Of a DNA stretch of 28,563 nucleotides, positions 9,372-28,563 are shown one piece after another; within the stretch, counting starts at the first letter, position 1; every line of letters begins with the position of its first letter. A program made the position numbers and the translations under genes. The DNA lies in IMG/VR virus record IMGVR_UViG_3300045963_000149, positions 1-28,563 of that record. One strand, given 5' to 3'. The stretch comes from a virus. The notes beneath the pieces were generated by a model that was not told the origin of the DNA, made no database searches, and worked only from the letters and a program-made list of their open reading frames with translations.

Positions 9372-9946
9372 ACTCACTGATCGTGAAGGTGGTCGCCCTG
9401 CTCGCGGCGATTTCGGCCGTGACCATTTGGCACTTCCGCGAGGTGCACTCCGCCGAAGCCGACGGCCACGAACGGGGTGCCTCGGAGGTCGCCGCGAAGT
9501 GGGATCAGGAGCGCCAACGAATCACCGCCGCCGCACTGACGGCATCCGAACTTGCACGCCAAAAGGAGGCCGCTTATGTCACCGCAGTCGAATCCACGAG
9601 AGAACACTATGCCCGCGAAAGCGACGCCAGCAAGGTTGCTGCTGCTCGCGCTGCTTCTGAACTTGGCCGCTTGCGCGTCGCCGTCGCGAACGCCCGGCCC
9701 GCTGGATCAGGGGTTGGTCGATGCGGAGGCGCAGGCCCGAATCCGCCACCCAATGATCACGCCGCTGTCGATGCCCCGCGAGTTGATGAAACCGCCCCGG
9801 GAGTCGGGGTATTACTCATCGCATGCGGAGAGCAGCTTCAAGACGTGGCAAGAGTGGCTGACGAACTTGGGGACCAAGTCCGCGGACTGCAACGCCACAC
9901 AGAGTCGCTGCTAGAGCACATCGCTGGCCAGCCGCCAATCCCCTGA
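9368..9946 (+). CDS. Rz: Inner-membrane spanin subunit (Rz-like)
   Basis: A 192-residue protein starting at ATG 9368 (ATGA overlap with the endolysin). An N-terminal membrane anchor spans about residues 4-21. A long Ala/Glu/Arg-rich coiled-coil periplasmic region follows (residues about 30-105, with E-R-G-A-S-E-V-A-A-K-W and Q-R-I-T-A-A-A heptads), then a Pro-rich low-complexity stretch and a second helical segment. This is the layout of phage i-spanins, which join with the outer-membrane lipoprotein Rz1 to fuse the membranes in the last step of lysis. The C-terminal extension beyond residue 105 overlaps the Rz1 frame, and its Gly/Pro-rich part is probably shaped by that overlap. Its stop overlaps the sigma factor start. 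Confidence 0.88.
   Translation: MNSLIVKVVALLAAISAVTIWHFREVHSAEADGHERGASEVAAKWDQERQRITAAALTASELARQKEAAYVTAVESTREHYARESDASKVAAARAASELGRLRVAVANARPAGSGVGRCGGAGPNPPPNDHAAVDAPRVDETAPGVGVLLIACGEQLQDVARVADELGDQVRGLQRHTESLLEHIAGQPPIP
9609..9914 (+). CDS. Rz1: Outer-membrane spanin lipoprotein (Rz1-like), nested inside Rz
   Basis: A 101-residue frame lying wholly inside Rz in the +1 frame. Starting at ATG 9609, a short basic N-terminus (K4, R9) leads into a Leu/Ala core ending in the lipobox L-N-L-A-A-C, with the lipidated Cys at residue 22. The mature part is Pro-rich (P-S-R-T-P-G-P, T-P-L-S-M-P, K-P-P), as expected for o-spanins. This is the classical embedded Rz/Rz1 arrangement of lambda-like lysis cassettes. 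ATG codons at 9552 and 9576 are also in frame, but 9609 gives the signal peptide the right length. The C-terminus (about residues 75-101) is helical and possibly interacts with Rz. Confidence 0.85.
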   Translation: MPAKATPARLLLLALLLNLAACASPSRTPGPLDQGLVDAEAQARIRHPMITPLSMPRELMKPPRESGYYSSHAESSFKTWQEWLTNLGTKSADCNATQSRC

Positions 9947-10509
9947 TGAACCACACGAGTGGTCTCAAGCAGTACGAGCCACTCGTTCGCAGCATTGCCA
10001 TCAAGATGCTCCGCAACTTACCAGCCAACATCGAACTTGATGACTTGATGCAGGTTGGTATGATTGCCACACACGAGTGCATGCAGCGGTTCGTTGATGA
10101 TGGTCGTGCAAAGTTCGAGAGCTACGCAGGTCTGAGGATCAGTGGAGCGATGATCGACGAGTTGCGTCGAGCTGACCCACTGAGCCGCAATGAACGGAAA
10201 AAAGGCTCAACCACACAGATTGTCTTGTTCGAAGATCTTGGCGAGGATGATGTCGACTTCATAGAGACCATGGCTGCTGACGAGTCGTTTGATCCTGTCA
10301 AGCAACTGCAGAATCGGCGCATGGATACGGCCCTGGTCAACGCAGTCGCAGATCTATCCGAGCGTGACCGCAATGTCATGAGCATGTACTACGAACACGA
10401 CATGAAGCTCCGCGAGATCGGGGTCGTCATGGGCCTCACAGAGTCGCGTATCTGCAAGATGATGCGTGACATTATCAACGAACTTAGAGAGCGTCTGAGC
10501 GAACACTGA
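9946..10509 (+). CDS. FliA-like RNA polymerase sigma factor lacking region 3
   Basis: A 187-residue sigma-70 family protein closest to sigma-28/FliA. Region 2 spans about residues 8-80: Y-E-P-L-V-R-S-I-A, the L-P-A-N-I-E-L-D-D-L-M-Q-V-G-M core-binding motif, and F-E-S-Y-A-G-L-R-I-S-G-A-M-I-D-E-L-R-R, a FliA signature. Region 4 is at about residues 130-185: L-S-E-R-D-R-N-V-M-S-M-Y-Y, L-R-E-I-G-V-V-M-G-L-T-E-S-R-I, a helix-turn-helix. The segment between is only about 50 residues, mostly acidic (G-E-D-D-V-D-F-I-E), and has no recognisable region 3; FliA is usually about 240 residues. The start overlaps the Rz stop. It could redirect host RNA polymerase to phage promoters or interfere with host flagellar regulation. 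A strong terminator follows. Confidence 0.88.
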   Translation: MNHTSGLKQYEPLVRSIAIKMLRNLPANIELDDLMQVGMIATHECMQRFVDDGRAKFESYAGLRISGAMIDELRRADPLSRNERKKGSTTQIVLFEDLGEDDVDFIETMAADESFDPVKQLQNRRMDTALVNAVADLSERDRNVMSMYYEHDMKLREIGVVMGLTESRICKMMRDIINELRERLSEH

Positions 10510-10532
10510 GCGGCCTCATAAGCATTGTCTCC

Positions 10533-10582
10533 TTGGTCTGTGGACCAATTAGCCCTAGCCGAAAGGCTGGGGCTTTTTTTTT
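10533..10582 (+). terminator. Intrinsic terminator after the sigma factor gene, preceded by a second hairpin
   Basis: AGCCCTAGCC (10551-10560), a GAAA loop and GGCTGGGGCT (10565-10574) form a 10-bp stem with one G-U pair. Eight T follow at 10575-10582, a textbook Rho-independent terminator. Just upstream, TTGGTC (10533-10538) and GACCAA (10543-10548) form a smaller perfect hairpin around TGTG. Together they close the tail-lysis-sigma transcription unit. Confidence 0.92.
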
Positions 10583-10591
10583 CACTTGCAT

Positions 10592-10656
10592 AAAAATAAT
10601 TGTAAGAACTGATGTATACTGTCTTCACTGCAACATCGCAGTCTCAATGTCGAAAG
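10592..10656 (+). promoter_or_regulatory. Promoter/leader module, copy 1
   Basis: AAAAATAA tract, TTGTAA (10600-10605), TATACT box (10615-10620), then exactly 6 nt to an ACTGC-AACATC-GCAGT stem-loop (10627-10642) and CTCAATGTCGAAAG. Compared with copies 2-6 the second TTGTA half-site is missing and the GG of the ribosome binding site has changed. The mini-ORF frame seen in other copies is broken here. It precedes the gene at 10663. Confidence 0.8.
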
Positions 10657-10662
10657 TCCACC

Positions 10663-10860
10663 ATGTACGCACTTGCACTATTCATCGACGAAATTCATGA
10701 CAAAGGATATTTCGTCGCCGATGATCAAGATATCACCATCAACAAATCAGAAGCTATGCACTTCGAGACATCCGAATTAGCTCACTGGGCCGTCAAGATC
10801 GTGAACTCCACATGGGAATTTTCACCATGTGAAATCTTCCGCGTCGTGCAAATCGCTTAA
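10663..10860 (+). CDS. Small protein of unknown function, cassette gene 1
   Basis: A 65-residue acidic protein starting at ATG 10663, the first start after the leader module; the in-frame start at 10612 lies within the promoter and is not used. The sequence begins M-Y-A-L-A-L-F-I-D-E and has a central S-E-A-M-H-F-E-T-S-E stretch. I see no signal peptide, membrane helix or metal motif. Its ribosome binding site is weak (CGAAAGTCC), unlike the other cassettes. Position right after the sigma gene terminator and its own promoter module suggests an early host-takeover protein, but that is inference. Confidence 0.7.
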   Translation: MYALALFIDEIHDKGYFVADDQDITINKSEAMHFETSELAHWAVKIVNSTWEFSPCEIFRVVQIA

Positions 10861-10880
10861 AAAAGAGCCTCATTGTGTAC

Positions 10881-11033
10881 ATGACCGTCTCTGAGTTTCT
10901 GCTCTCGCTCAACCAATACGAGTACTTAGCTTGTCTGAAGCACGACGATCCTGACTGCGACTTCAAGACTCTCTTTGATGTCGTCACGTATTGGGCCTCT
11001 CTCCACCATCCGCACATCGTGATTACCCCATAA
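10881..11033 (+). CDS. Possible small ORF of 50 residues, cassette region 1
   Basis: An open frame between the previous gene and the next promoter module, starting at ATG 10881 (or GTG 10875, better spaced behind AAAAGAG). It reads M-T-V-S-E-F-L-L-S-L-N-Q-Y-E-Y-L and ends V-I-T-P-TAA, the stop lying at the first base of the module's A-tract. Composition is balanced and protein-like with an acidic centre (K-H-D-D-P-D-C-D-F). It fills a gap that would otherwise hold nothing, and cassette genes here are packed tightly. There is no homology I can name, and the ribosome binding site is poor, so it could be non-coding. Confidence 0.45.
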   Translation: MTVSEFLLSLNQYEYLACLKHDDPDCDFKTLFDVVTYWASLHHPHIVITP

Positions 11034-11106
11034 AAATAGTTGTACATTTTGTTGTAGTTGATGTATACTGTCTTCACTGCAACATCGCAGTCTCAATGTC
11101 GAAAGG
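11032..11106 (+). promoter_or_regulatory. Promoter/leader module, copy 2
   Basis: AAAAATAG, TTGTAC (11040-11045) and TTGTAG (11052-11057) 12 bp apart, TATACT (11064-11069), 6 nt, stem-loop ACTGC-AACATC-GCAGT (11076-11091), then CTCAATGTCGAAAGG, with AAAGG as ribosome binding site. A mini-ORF ATG-TCG-AAA-GGC-TGA (11096-11110) ends 3 nt before the gene start at 11114, in the same frame. Confidence 0.85.
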
Positions 11107-11113
11107 CTGAATC

Positions 11114-11317
11114 ATGACAAAGCAAAAAGTGATCCAAGGTTACACGGTGGAAATCGATGGAACGGACTGCTTCGTGACCAAGGGCAAGTTCTCCGCCAGT
11201 CTTGCAGCGATGCAGGTAACTGGAACCCTGGAATCCAACGGGTTCAGCGAATCACACGATGTTCCTGAATCTGCTCAAGTAGCGATCGAGCAGTGGGCCG
11301 TGAACAACGGCTGGTAA
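11114..11317 (+). CDS. Small protein of unknown function, cassette gene 2
   Basis: A 67-residue protein starting at ATG 11114, 8 nt after the AAAGG of leader copy 2. It opens M-T-K-Q-K-V-I-Q-G-Y-T-V-E-I-D-G and ends A-V-N-N-G-W; the alternating pattern in the first half suggests a small beta-rich fold. I see no known motif. It is followed within 10 nt by a GGGGC-TTCG-GCCCC hairpin. Its own promoter module suggests independent control, possibly reading through into the next gene, which has only a leader remnant. Confidence 0.75.
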   Translation: MTKQKVIQGYTVEIDGTDCFVTKGKFSASLAAMQVTGTLESNGFSESHDVPESAQVAIEQWAVNNGW

Positions 11318-11324
11318 GCAAGCA

Positions 11325-11343
11325 ATGGGGCTTCGGCCCCCAT
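11325..11343 (+). terminator. UUCG hairpin at the end of cassette 2
   Basis: ATGGGGC-TTCG-GCCCC(C)AT. A stable GC-rich stem with a UUCG tetraloop but no T-run behind it, so it may be a 3'-end stabiliser or weak terminator and not a full intrinsic terminator. Confidence 0.6.
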
Positions 11344-11366
11344 CATCAATGTCGAAGGAGTTTTCA

Positions 11367-11639
11367 ATGGCTACCAAGAAAGTCAAGTCCCGTCCAGTCT
11401 ATCTTTCCTATCCTGAGGCCGACGAGTACCGCAGCGGCTGCAAGGTGTCGTGGAATTACTACCGCGATGAAGCCAGAGCCAAGGAGGCAGCAATTGCAGC
11501 CAGGCACAATGCCAAGCTTCAAATGGCACAAGGCTACGACTTCGGATACCAGTGCCCAGGCAACATCACCAAGATGAGATCAAACTTCGACGGTGAGTGG
11601 GCCAAGTACAACGACATGTGGGAGGTGTGCATGCCATAA
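11367..11639 (+). CDS. Small protein of unknown function, cassette gene 3
   Basis: A 90-residue protein. ATG 11367 is preceded by GAAGGAG with good spacing and is the preferred start. ATG 11349 is in frame and belongs to a leader remnant (TCAATGTCGAAGG), which would add M-S-K-E-F-S. The sequence is basic at the N-terminus (A-T-K-K-V-K-S-R-P), has Tyr-rich stretches (Y-L-S-Y-P-E-A-D-E-Y) and an Ala/Lys-rich helix (A-R-A-K-E-A-A-I-A-A-R). There is no known motif. No promoter of the module type lies in front, so it is probably transcribed from the promoter of cassette 2. Confidence 0.75.
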   Translation: MATKKVKSRPVYLSYPEADEYRSGCKVSWNYYRDEARAKEAAIAARHNAKLQMAQGYDFGYQCPGNITKMRSNFDGEWAKYNDMWEVCMP

Positions 11640-11645
11640 GCAGCG

Positions 11646-11663
11646 AGGGGGCTTCGGCCCCCT
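11646..11663 (+). terminator. UUCG hairpin at the end of cassette 3
   Basis: AGGGGGC-TTCG-GCCCCCT, a 7-bp stem with a UUCG tetraloop, 7 nt after the stop and 7 nt before the A-tract of promoter copy 3. There is no T-run. Confidence 0.65.
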
Positions 11664-11669
11664 TGACTC

Positions 11670-11745
11670 AAAAATAGTTGTACAAGTCGTTGTAGACTGT
11701 TGTATACTGTCTTCACTGCATCGTCGCAGTCTCAATGTCGAAAGG
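11670..11745 (+). promoter_or_regulatory. Promoter/leader module, copy 3
   Basis: AAAAATAG, TTGTAC (11678-11683) and TTGTAG (11690-11695), TATACT (11703-11708), 6 nt, stem-loop ACTGC-ATCGTC-GCAGT (11715-11730; the loop differs while the stem is kept), then CTCAATGTCGAAAGG. The mini-ORF ATG-TCG-AAA-GGT-TAG (11735-11749) lies 3 nt before the gene start at 11753. Confidence 0.87.
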
Positions 11746-11752
11746 TTAGATC

Positions 11753-12625
11753 ATGAATGCTCAAGCAACGTCGTTCGATGACATGGAAGACGACTTAGAC
11801 TTTATCTCGTCCAACCCTCACAAGGAGTTGGCCAAGGAGAAAGAGTTGTACAAGGAGTCTTGCACGTCCTGCCATGGCAGCGGCCGCTTTGTCGGCTGGT
11901 CTTCGTACGGCAAGGAATGCTTCGCCTGTGAAGGCCGCGGCTTCAAGGAATTCAAGACGAGCCCTGAGTACCGCAAGGCTCGGGCAGCCAAGACAGCTGC
12001 CAACAAGGCGAGCGCTGCACGCGACAAAATGGTTGCTCAAAATGCCTGGCGCGCTGATCACCCAGACGTGATCGCCTGGGTCAATGGCCAAGACGGTCGC
12101 TTTGACTTCGGTACGGCGATGGCCAACGCTCTGCAGCAGTACGGCACCTTGACCGAAAACCAAGTTGCTGCCATCCGCCGCTGCATCGCTCGTGATGCTG
12201 ACTACAAGGCACAACGTGAGGAAAAGCTCAAGGCTGCTGCCGAAGTTGCACCGCAAGTCAACGCCTCCAAGTTGGAAGACGCCTTTCGTATTGCGAAAGG
12301 CAAGGGTCTCAAATGGCCCAAAATCAAGATCGCTGGCGTCAAGATCTCTCCTGCCAGTGAGACAAGCGCAAACGCTGGAGCCTTGTACGTCAAAGAGGGT
12401 GAGACCTACCTCGGCAAGGTTTTTGGTGGTCGGTTCCTTAAGAGCCGTGACTGCGGTGCAGAGCAAGAAGGCATTGTGGTCAACCTGATCAACGACCCCA
12501 AGGGCTACGCTGAAGCCTACGGCTTACGCACCGGTCAATGCTGCATCTGCAGCCGTGAGCTGACCAACAAAGAGTCGATCGACCGTGGCATCGGCCCGAT
12601 CTGTGCCGAGAAGTTCGGCTGGTAA
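11753..12625 (+). CDS. Two-zinc-motif protein with C-terminal DUF6011-like domain
   Basis: A 290-residue protein. The N-terminal part has a DnaJ-type zinc pair: C-T-S-C-H-G-S-G (C37, C40) and C-F-A-C-E-G-R-G (C56, C59). The middle (about residues 70-190) is helical and charged. Residues about 190-255 form a beta-rich stretch. The C-terminus (263-290) is C-C-I-C-S-R-E-L, then S-I-x-R-G-I-G-P-I-C-A, the DUF6011 signature, a second zinc-binding site common in phage and plasmid proteins handling nucleic acids. The function is unknown; a DNA- or RNA-binding role is inferred. The start is the ATG after leader copy 3, which has a good AAAGG, and a UUCG hairpin follows the stop. Confidence 0.82.
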   Translation: MNAQATSFDDMEDDLDFISSNPHKELAKEKELYKESCTSCHGSGRFVGWSSYGKECFACEGRGFKEFKTSPEYRKARAAKTAANKASAARDKMVAQNAWRADHPDVIAWVNGQDGRFDFGTAMANALQQYGTLTENQVAAIRRCIARDADYKAQREEKLKAAAEVAPQVNASKLEDAFRIAKGKGLKWPKIKIAGVKISPASETSANAGALYVKEGETYLGKVFGGRFLKSRDCGAEQEGIVVNLINDPKGYAEAYGLRTGQCCICSRELTNKESIDRGIGPICAEKFGW

Positions 12626-12633
12626 GCAGCGAT

Positions 12634-12647
12634 GGGGCTTCGGCCCC
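12634..12647 (+). terminator. UUCG hairpin at the end of cassette 4
   Basis: GGGGC-TTCG-GCCCC, 8 nt after the stop, directly followed by CAC and the A-tract of promoter copy 4. No T-run. Confidence 0.6.
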
Positions 12648-12650
12648 CAC

Positions 12651-12726
12651 AAAAATATTTGTACACGTGTTTGTAGAGTGCTGTACAATGCACTCACTGC
12701 AACATCGCAGTCTTAATGTCGAAAGG
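12651..12726 (+). promoter_or_regulatory. Promoter/leader module, copy 4
   Basis: AAAAATAT, TTGTAC (12659-12664) and TTGTAG (12671-12676), TACAAT (12684-12689), 6 nt (GCACTC instead of GTCTTC), stem-loop ACTGC-AACATC-GCAGT (12696-12711), CTTAATGTCGAAAGG. The mini-ORF ATG-TCG-AAA-GGC-TAG (12716-12730) is kept. It drives the gene at 12734. Confidence 0.87.
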
Positions 12727-12733
12727 CTAGATC

Positions 12734-13486
12734 ATGACTGAAGAAAACAACCTCGACTCGGTAATGCGTCGTGTCAAAAAGCTCCTGGCAATTGCTCAGG
12801 ACGCACGCGGTGACGCCAACGAGTGTGCTGCAGCTGCACGGATGGCCGAGTCCATCATGCGCAAGTATGAAATCGAGCACGCTGACGTGATCAGCGCTGA
12901 GATTAAAAACGCCGGTGCTGAAGCGTTCGACTACTGCAACATCGGCGCTGGCATGGACGTATCTTGGAAAGTTAAGACGGCCAGCGGTTGGGCCGGTTGG
13001 TTGGCCGTTGCTGTGGCAAACCTCTACGAATGCCAGGCACGGTACGGCGAAGTCGAAGGGTACAAGACCATCAAGTTCAGTGGTTACCGCACGGACGTAC
13101 AGATGGCCAAGTTCACCTACGAGTACATTGTCAATCAGATGGGCGCTGCTTCACGTGAGTTTACTAAGAATCACACAGGCGAGTTTGGCGTACGCGCTGA
13201 AGCTGAGTCTTTCCGCCGAGGCTTCATCCAAGCCTGCATTGCCTCTCTCAAGAAGCTGATCGAAGAGAAGAAGGCAGAGATGCAAGAGGCTGCCTCAAGC
13301 CGCGCGCTTGTCATCGTCAAGTCTCAAGCGGTGGCTCAGCACTTCGGCGAGGTCAAGTACGGCGCGTCCAACAGCAAGACACGTCAAGGCGAAGCTTACG
13401 ATCAAGGCCGAACGAAGGGCAGCCAAGTGGACGTCACACGGCGTGGTGTTGGTCACAGCGGAGGCACAGCTCCACGACTCAAGTAA
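12734..13486 (+). CDS. DUF2786-domain protein
   Basis: A 250-residue protein. The first 50 residues match DUF2786: V-K-K-L-L-A-I-A-Q-D, then N-E-C-A-A-A-A-R-M-A-E-S-I-M-R-K-Y-E-I. The following region has W-A-G-W-L-A-V-A-V-A-N-L-Y and F-S-G-Y-R-T-D-V-Q-M-A-K-F-T-Y-E-Y, which commonly continues the family in phages. A helical stretch (about 165-195) and a basic Gly/Ser-rich tail (T-R-R-G-V-G-H-S-G-G) end the protein. The biochemical function is not known; similar genes are widespread in phage early regions. Translation should start at ATG 12734 after leader copy 4, and a GGGGC-TTCT-GCCCC hairpin closes the cassette. Confidence 0.85.
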   Translation: MTEENNLDSVMRRVKKLLAIAQDARGDANECAAAARMAESIMRKYEIEHADVISAEIKNAGAEAFDYCNIGAGMDVSWKVKTASGWAGWLAVAVANLYECQARYGEVEGYKTIKFSGYRTDVQMAKFTYEYIVNQMGAASREFTKNHTGEFGVRAEAESFRRGFIQACIASLKKLIEEKKAEMQEAASSRALVIVKSQAVAQHFGEVKYGASNSKTRQGEAYDQGRTKGSQVDVTRRGVGHSGGTAPRLK

Positions 13487-13489
13487 ACA

Positions 13490-13507
13490 AAGGGGCTTCT
13501 GCCCCTT
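13490..13507 (+). terminator. Hairpin at the end of cassette 5
   Basis: AAGGGGC-TTCT-GCCCCTT, a 7-bp perfect stem immediately after the stop region. The loop is UUCU, not UUCG. It runs straight into the AT-rich start of promoter copy 5. Confidence 0.65.
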
Positions 13508-13555
13508 AAATATTTGTACAAGTTGTTGTAAAATGTAGTGTACAATGTCGAAAGG
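13508..13555 (+). promoter_or_regulatory. Promoter/leader module, copy 5, without the stem-loop
   Basis: AAATATTTGTAC (half-site 13514-13519) and TTGTAA (13526-13531), TACAAT (13541-13546), directly followed by GTCGAAAGG. The stem-loop and its flanks are absent, exactly as if 28 nt between two AATG repeats of a copy-4-type module had been deleted. The mini-ORF ATG-TCG-AAA-GGT-TAG (13545-13559) remains, 3 nt before the gene at 13563. Confidence 0.82.
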
Positions 13556-13562
13556 TTAGATC

Positions 13563-13739
13563 ATGAACATGTGGACAAAGCTGATTACCGTGTGGCTCAA
13601 CGTCGATATCACTATTGCTGTTAAAGTTAAAGATGAACTCTGCGAGATGGGCATCAGCTTCAGCAACAGCACCGAGCGTCAACTCAAGCGCGCCGCCAAA
13701 GAGGCACTGGAAACTCTCAAAGCCAGAGGACAAGCGTGA
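13563..13739 (+). CDS. Small protein of unknown function, cassette gene 6
   Basis: A 58-residue protein starting at ATG 13563 after leader copy 5 (AAAGG 8 nt upstream). The N-terminus is hydrophobic (M-W-T-K-L-I-T-V-W-L-N-V), followed by a charged helix (S-T-E-R-Q-L-K-R-A-A-K-E-A-L-E-T-L-K). The stop TGA overlaps the GTG start of the dCMP deaminase (GTGA), so both genes are probably translated from the same messenger. There is no known motif. Its reading frame, leader and coupling make it a convincing gene in spite of its size. Confidence 0.72.
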   Translation: MNMWTKLITVWLNVDITIAVKVKDELCEMGISFSNSTERQLKRAAKEALETLKARGQA

Positions 13740-21905: not shown

Positions 21906-21923
21906 CTACAACAACAAGTACAA
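21906..21923 (-). promoter_or_regulatory. TTGTAC-N6-TTGTAG element upstream of the ssDNA-binding gene (copy 7, partial)
   Basis: On the minus strand TTGTAC and TTGTAG stand 12 bp apart, as in promoter modules 2-6. The A-tract, the TATACT/TACAAT box, the stem-loop and the ATGTCGAAAGG leader are not present here. This suggests a protein-binding site separable from the promoter. Confidence 0.5.
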
Positions 21924-24650: not shown

Positions 24651-24832
24651 TTCGACATTGACTTGGTTTCAGAGATTGTACTGTGCTTTGTAGACTTTTT
24701 TCGTGATTTTATTGGTAGCTCCAATGTGGTGAAGCGATGCAAGTTGGCGCACTGGCGGCGCCTTCTCACACCGCCTTCTTGTTTACGTGTCTCCAGTAAA
24801 GTTGTCCATTGACCGCACTCAGGACAATCCAC
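24647..24832 (-). CDS. NrdR-like zinc ribbon protein
   Basis: A 61-residue protein starting at GTG 24832. The sequence D-C-P-E-C-G-Q-W-T-T-L-L-E-T-R, then R-R-R-R-Q-C-A-N-L-H-R-F-T-T-L-E, is the NrdR-type zinc ribbon (C-x-x-C, then R-R-R-x-C and R-F-T-T) with the last ligand probably a His in place of Cys. A basic Ser/Lys tail follows; the ATP-cone of cellular NrdR is absent. It may be a DNA-binding regulator or helicase partner. The stop overlaps the helicase start (ATGA). The ribosome binding site is weak, so the GTG is chosen because it places the zinc motif at the N-terminus, as in NrdR. Confidence 0.68.
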   Translation of the reverse strand: MDCPECGQWTTLLETRKQEGGVRRRRQCANLHRFTTLELPIKSRKKSTKHSTISETKSMSK

Positions 24833-28258: not shown

Positions 28259-28274
28259 GGGGGCCGAAGCCCCC
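28259..28274 (-). terminator. UUCG hairpin after the first minus-strand gene
   Basis: On the minus strand GGGGGC-TTCG-GCCCCC, the same stem and tetraloop as in the plus-strand cassettes, 8 nt after the stop. There is no T-run, and the long operon continues downstream, so full termination here is doubtful. Confidence 0.6.
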
Positions 28275-28479: not shown

Positions 28480-28487
28480 GATCTAAC

Positions 28488-28563
28488 CTTTCGACATTAA
28501 GACTGCGACGTTGCAGTGAGTGCATTGTACACTACATTTTACAACGCAGTGTACAACTATTTT
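28488..28563 (-). promoter_or_regulatory. Promoter/leader module, copy 6, on the minus strand at the right edge
   Basis: Read on the minus strand: AAAATAG, TTGTAC (28556-28551), TTGTAA 12 bp on (28544-28539), TACAAT (28529-28524), 6 nt, stem-loop ACTGC-AACGTC-GCAGT (28517-28502), CTTAATGTCGAAAGG, with the mini-ORF ATG-TCG-AAA-GGT-TAG 3 nt before the gene. It closely matches copies 4 and 5 and is the only full module promoter seen for the whole minus-strand block in this window. Confidence 0.87.

Follow-up and report, generated by a model that had tools for sequence, protein, structure and literature searches.

A transcription and translation start module, in which a promoter is followed at a fixed distance below its -10 box by a short stem-loop, has six copies, one of them without the stem-loop, in the DNA analysed here (the window, 28,563 bases from the record of an uncultivated virus, with tailed-phage tail, lysis and replication genes) and is present in at least about 42 other IMG/VR contigs (hand count), often in several copies per contig. 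The geometry of the module is fixed, its stems covary, and in the window and six relatives the stem palindromes were never found outside modules. By analogy with stem-loops that stabilise other messages, we consider it fairly probable that the module is a reused start cassette whose predicted 5'-terminal hairpin lengthens the life of early and replication mRNAs.

The six copies in the window sit where the initial annotation had placed them:

10592 to 10662, + strand: module copy 1, with TTGTA at 10600, TATACT at 10615-10620 and the hairpin at 10627-10642; its leader runs to ATG 10663 (65-aa ORF)
10627 to 10642, + strand: hairpin of copy 1, ACTGC-AACATC-GCAGT, with the predicted +1 at its first A; copies 2, 3, 4 and 6 are laid out alike
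11032 to 11113, + strand: module copy 2, with TTGTA at 11040 and 11052, TATACT at 11064-11069 and the hairpin at 11076-11091; its leader runs to ATG 11114 (67-aa ORF)
11670 to 11752, + strand: module copy 3, with TTGTA at 11678 and 11690, TATACT at 11703-11708 and the hairpin at 11715-11730; its leader runs to ATG 11753 (290 aa, phrog_4046, DUF6011)
12651 to 12733, + strand: module copy 4, with TTGTA at 12659 and 12671, TACAAT at 12684-12689 and the hairpin at 12696-12711; its leader runs to ATG 12734 (250 aa, phrog_421, DUF2786/DUF7168)
13508 to 13562, + strand: module copy 5, without hairpin, with TTGTA at 13514 and 13526 and TACAAT at 13541-13546, then GTCGAAAGG; downstream are a 58-aa ORF at 13563 and then the dCMP deaminase and DNA polymerase B genes
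28480 to 28563, - strand: module copy 6, with TTGTA at 28556 and 28544, TACAAT at 28529-28524 and the hairpin at 28517-28502; its leader runs to ATG 28479 (65-aa ORF)

The sequence ACTGC-N6-GCAGT occurs exactly five times in the window (10627, 11076, 11715 and 12696 on the + strand; 28517-28502 on the - strand), each time starting 6 nt after TATACT or TACAAT, as had been reported. The combination of box, 6 nt and a perfect hairpin of 5 bp with a loop of 6, found five times, has a mean of 0.055 and a maximum of 2 in 200 dinucleotide shuffles of the window, and TTGTA-N7-TTGTA, found seven times, has a mean of 0.01 and a maximum of 1. Recurrence of the promoter-plus-hairpin module in the window is thereby confirmed. 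The tandem TTGTA repeats are 12 bp apart and their position relative to the -10 box is variable. Two details of the initial annotation hold in part: paired TTGTA half-sites and AAAGG, described for all copies, are not both present in copy 1, which has a single TTGTA and reads ATGTCGAAAGTCC instead of AAAGG, and the stem bases, described as invariant, are so within the window, while relatives carry other stem types.

The same spacing was recovered in relatives by searches that left it free. When box-to-stem distances of 2-10 nt and loops of 3-9 nt were allowed, 56 of 57 distinct matches had a distance of 6 nt and a loop of 6, and the sole exception, L122, lies out of module context (it was set aside on this ground, as were L154 and L156-L159). 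An offset scan in seven contigs likewise gave its maximum at offset 6 with loop 6. One module copy (G007 16305) has a 5-nt loop and stands outside the 6-nt-loop counts. A search with the leader and the outer pairs but no requirement for a -10 box returned 34 distinct matches; in the 26 that lie in module context, every stem is completely paired and TACAAT (25) or TATAAT (1) stands exactly 6 nt upstream, and among the remaining eight, six show neither full pairing nor a box and two are paired without a box.

According to PMC5730371, the start position favoured by RNA polymerase is 7 bp below the -10 element. This is the first A of the stem, a base that is A in 61 of 61 copies. The stem is thus placed at the start of the transcript by prediction from the -10 box. 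If transcription does begin there, the 5' end of the mRNA would be base-paired from nucleotide 1.

Pairing within the stem is conserved more strictly than its sequence. When only the outer two pairs were fixed in the search pattern, 69 copies turned up across 45 stretches; five Watson-Crick pairs are present in 68 and a single G-U in the other one. With the stem left entirely free there were 60 distinct matches: the 55 in module context are all paired (53 with Watson-Crick pairs throughout, two with one G-U), and the other five, out of context, are unpaired. In an alignment of 60 copies, from which L120 was omitted because a second hairpin is inserted after the first and which does not include the L236 and L247 copies, 300 of 300 stem cells are paired, as would be looked for in a 5'-terminal stabilising stem-loop, where pairing rather than sequence is kept. 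Both sides have changed in 16 cells, at three of the five pairs, against 1.3 expected from shuffles; the rows take in closely related contigs, so that these cell counts are not independent events. Only two one-sided changes were seen, both giving G-U and none A-C. RNAalifold applied to the aligned copies gives the same helix.

Six stem types occur with their complements (ACGGC, ACTGC, ACAGC, ATGGC, ACGAC and ACACC), plus two G-U intermediates. Related though the rows are, the most common stem has been departed from in five different compensated ways. Three contigs (G004, G006 and G007) each mix stem types, and orthologous promoters can stand two compensated pairs apart, as with ACGGC/GCCGT in G002 and G005 and ACACC/GGTGT in G004. 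The stem is short, a point against the mRNA-protection reading: predicted folding energies of isolated hairpins are -4.2 to -6.9 kcal/mol, and the weakest stem pair of 70-nt leaders has a median predicted probability of 0.71 (5th percentile 0.27). The structural reading in the initial annotation is thus strongly supported by the copies in relatives, the fixed box-to-stem spacing, the covarying stems and the location of the hairpin at the preferred start position.

The carriers of the module are uncultivated phages which, judging from their DNA-replication genes, are related to one another. A search with the DNA polymerase of the window gave 67 loci, three of which (L005, L006 and L007) carry the module with other stems. 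It had been proposed that a motif search turning up no further copies would speak against the module; the copies in relatives exclude that outcome. In a survey for -10, -35 and hairpin, the 64 module-free loci, together with L150 and L151 from the same contig as one of them (1.07 Mb), show no peak near offset 6, with one match at offsets 4-9. By rank, the closest polymerases among named phages are those of Acidovorax phages, with 49% identity. No module was found in named phages when the window region, the corresponding region of a relative and single modules were compared by blastn with 50,697 phage records, where weak matches had E of 3 or more. Pattern searching of a whole-genome collection gave three matches, none in module context; one of these, L117, has five paired positions, of which the search pattern dictated two. 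No Rfam family matched the hairpin.

Outside the stem, the loop is conserved as A-A-Y-N-U-C. Its end bases are A.C in 58 of 61 copies and G.U in three (four of 62 with L236), never A-U or G-C; the G.U loops come from few lineages and perhaps reflect two or three events. A.C and G.U wobbles are alike in geometry. The stem is followed by a nearly invariant spacer, CUNAAUGUYG, and then by the Shine-Dalgarno sequence AAAGG or AAGGA, and the leader is mostly 36-40 nt long up to the start codon. An AUG lies within AUGU upstream of the gene start in 60 of 61 copies (for example at 11096, 11735 and 12716 in the window). A conserved leader peptide was considered and rejected, since the frame of the mini-ORF varies by copy (26 are two-codon ML, four are MSKG, the rest are other or open). 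Pairing of the loop with the spacer in a pseudoknot (ACAU with AUGU) was also discarded, as by eye, among the printed copies, the AACATC loops alone would pair. In L120 and L123 (about 10130, minus strand) an extra hairpin separates the 5' hairpin from the ribosome-site motif.

In the window and its relatives the module leads small genes, phrog_4046 and phrog_421 genes, a DUF932 protein gene and a gene with a sub-threshold MarR-type match, and the replication genes come after these, transcribed in the same direction. The earlier suggestion of a phage regulon signal therefore stands as far as a promoter common to replication and presumably early genes is concerned; no regulator was identified. 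Some promoters with the same box, TGTACAAT, have no hairpin. In relatives it serves the dCMP deaminase gene that precedes polymerase B, which is nearly leaderless, and a YdaS-like HTH gene, whose leader is almost absent in G002, G005, G006 and G007 and short in G001 and G004. The transcript of this HTH gene apparently starts at about the ATG and is leaderless at G002 53775(-), G005 38769(-), G006 18279(-) and G007 14973.

Copy 5 of the window also has no hairpin. Here TACAATG runs straight into TCGAAAGG, the pattern that a 28-nt deletion between AATG repeats would give. Because relatives of the 58-aa protein encoded behind copy 5 sit behind hairpin modules in G006, G007 and L110, the window lineage is likely to have lost the hairpin of this copy.

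A separate promoter type was observed in six relatives, in which TATAAT is followed after 9 nt by TCGCT-gaaagg-AGCGA and the loop is the Shine-Dalgarno sequence of the following gene. These sites are at G001 27224(-), G002 12198, G004 6941(-), G005 52854, G006 29697 and G007 3632(-).

The mechanism that we favour combines these features in a reusable cassette that starts both transcription and translation of early and replication genes in one phage group. A sigma70-type promoter, with a TTGTAC/TTGTGT-like upstream element and TACAAT or TATACT as -10 box, would be read by the host RNA polymerase, which would begin the transcript 7 bp below the -10 box, at the A that opens the stem. In a host that, as we suppose, has RNase E and RppH, the stem of 5 bp with its 6-nt loop would deny the pyrophosphatase RppH and RNase E a single-stranded 5' end and so prolong the life of the message, and the conserved spacer and Shine-Dalgarno sequence would then position the start codon. 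Protection by the hairpin is argued from known stabilising stem-loops, and conservation of the loop, which plain end protection does not need, counts against it as the whole account. Nor would protection be general, since hairpin-less promoters with the same box serve the dCMP deaminase and polymerase genes and the HTH gene in relatives.

Loop and spacer conservation leave room for an added ligand role. The hairpin may be a specific RNA ligand, its loop read at the mRNA 5' end by a phage or host protein that controls translation, stability or elongation in the manner of boxB or of phage repressors; the conserved loop bases, the A.C or G.U loop ends and the nearly invariant spacer would suit such a function. 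We nevertheless regard it as rather unlikely, given that no candidate RNA-binding protein was identified, that the G.U loops trace to so few lineages, and that a terminator scan of the window found no strong terminator within the module array that would call for antitermination. Antitermination at a nut/boxB site involves boxA, an N-like protein and terminators that must be passed. Also rather doubtful is a related proposal, that the hairpin is an RNA tag at nucleotide 1 whose wobble loop is read by a phage or host factor, marking and protecting early mRNAs genome-wide as a stand-in for a cap. A function primarily in translation, with the hairpin insulating the leader and keeping the Shine-Dalgarno region open and stability secondary, would agree with the stem lying just upstream of the ribosome site, with the leader length and with the inclusion of spacer and Shine-Dalgarno sequence in the module; it would leave unexplained the exact coincidence of the first stem base with the predicted +1, at an unvarying distance from the box, and we think it quite improbable.

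Two DNA-level explanations were also weighed. The palindrome could be an operator over the start site to which a phage repressor binds; one candidate is the YdaS/Cro-like HTH protein, whose gene lies beside the first module in relatives. A dimeric repressor would fit half-sites of 5 bp that are spaced 11 bp apart across +1, and a small HTH gene is present in all 12 module contigs searched other than the window. Half-sites of an operator should vary independently, yet 16 cells have changed on both sides and the two one-sided changes are G-U; a single half-site sequence per genome would be expected, yet several contigs mix stems; the palindrome is missing from the promoters of the HTH gene itself and of dCMP deaminase; HTH genes are present in G018 and G019, where the module pattern has no match; and no HTH gene of this kind was found in the window fragment. 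Covariation, mixed stems and one-sided changes confined to G-U are more in keeping with an RNA hairpin at the predicted +1 than with a DNA operator, and we judge the repressor reading unlikely, although an operator for some other protein is conceivable. Recognition of the module promoters by the phage sigma factor, whose gene (9946-10509) directly precedes copy 1, seems very improbable. A Sigma70_r2 match was found in only one of 15 records, the window itself, and in none of the 12 other module contigs, some of which are fragments, so this factor would not be required for the module in relatives; moreover, the boxes look like host sigma70 promoters.

Stabilising 5' hairpins and repeated start-associated inverted repeats in phages are both known already. 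One bacterium in which the former have been used is Cupriavidus necator, a member of the Burkholderiales. There the T7 gene 10 stem-loop raised expression and contributes to mRNA stabilisation, according to PMC6146998, and ompA and T7 gene 10 mRNAs are named as protected by 5' hairpins in PMC2254391, the latter being the precedent from a phage. Like the ompA, papA and phage T7 gene 10 stem-loops, the module hairpin precedes the ribosome site at what is predicted to be the mRNA 5' end, and its pairing is kept over its sequence. Unlike them, it has only 5 bp, a conserved loop and a place in a repeated promoter cassette, and its start and stabilising effect are predictions.

The ESAS of Cluster K mycobacteriophages are, in the available portion of PMC3203893, 17-bp imperfect inverted repeats with a variable spacer beside the GGGATAGGAGCCC-like SAS, and their authors state there that the departures from symmetry do not support RNA pairing. 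The module resembles ESAS, as far as that portion describes it, in placing an inverted repeat tied to a conserved ribosome-site motif upstream of several phage start codons, and differs in that its stems covary and keep a constant distance from the -10 box above them. With its 5-bp stem, its loop of 6 in 56 of 57 distinct matches and its leader motif CUNAAUGUYG..AAGG, we rejected its assignment to ESAS. In Cluster EG Microbacterium phages, 8-10 short inverted repeats precede start codons by 14-22 bp (PMC7302621). Unlike the module, the repeat there is an 18-bp palindrome with a 2-nt centre, identical in three genomes, and the excerpt mentions no promoter geometry. Searches of the open-licence literature turned up no description of the module. 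An N4-type hairpin promoter is a DNA hairpin with a 3-nt loop, upstream of +1, that is itself the promoter; this candidate was rejected as well, the module hairpin being below the -10 box with a loop of 6.

If the favoured reading is right, one group of phages has made 5'-end mRNA protection part of a promoter that it reuses, in contrast to the mycobacteriophage ESAS repeats, where RNA pairing is unsupported. The natural covariation would then provide a ready set of mutants, the module a natural promoter and stabiliser in one compact unit, of use in expression work, and the group a clean case for how far phages rely on the 5'-end-dependent decay pathway of the host.

Other elements were noted in the window:

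9946 to 10509, + strand: phage sigma factor gene (Sigma70_r2 and r4), directly upstream of the array and outside the module
10551 to 10574, + strand: intrinsic-terminator-like site between the sigma-factor gene and the module array
11327 to 11340, + strand: GGGGCTTCGGCCCC hairpin behind a module-led gene, with no T-run
21907 to 21923, - strand: TTGTA-N7-TTGTA before the ssDNA-binding-protein gene, the rest of the module missing
24651 to 24680, - strand: partial module copy before the helicase gene, TACAAT at 24680-24675 and AATGTCGAA, without hairpin
24676 to 24692, + strand: TTGTA tandem upstream of the helicase gene

The TTGTA tandems at 21907-21923(-) and 24676-24692(+), away from hairpin modules, suggest that the tandem is the site of a separate regulator. 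Behind the sigma gene, Rfam gave a sub-threshold match to Betaproteobacteria_toxic_sRNA at 10526-10581 (37.5 bits against a cut-off of 50, E 0.00019), which overlaps the terminator. Hairpins similar to the one at 11327 lie at 11648, 12634 and 13492 (+) and at 28273 (-). In the window, GGGGCTTC[GT]GCCCC hairpins without T-runs were found only after module-array genes, so that some units would be bounded by hairpins at both ends.
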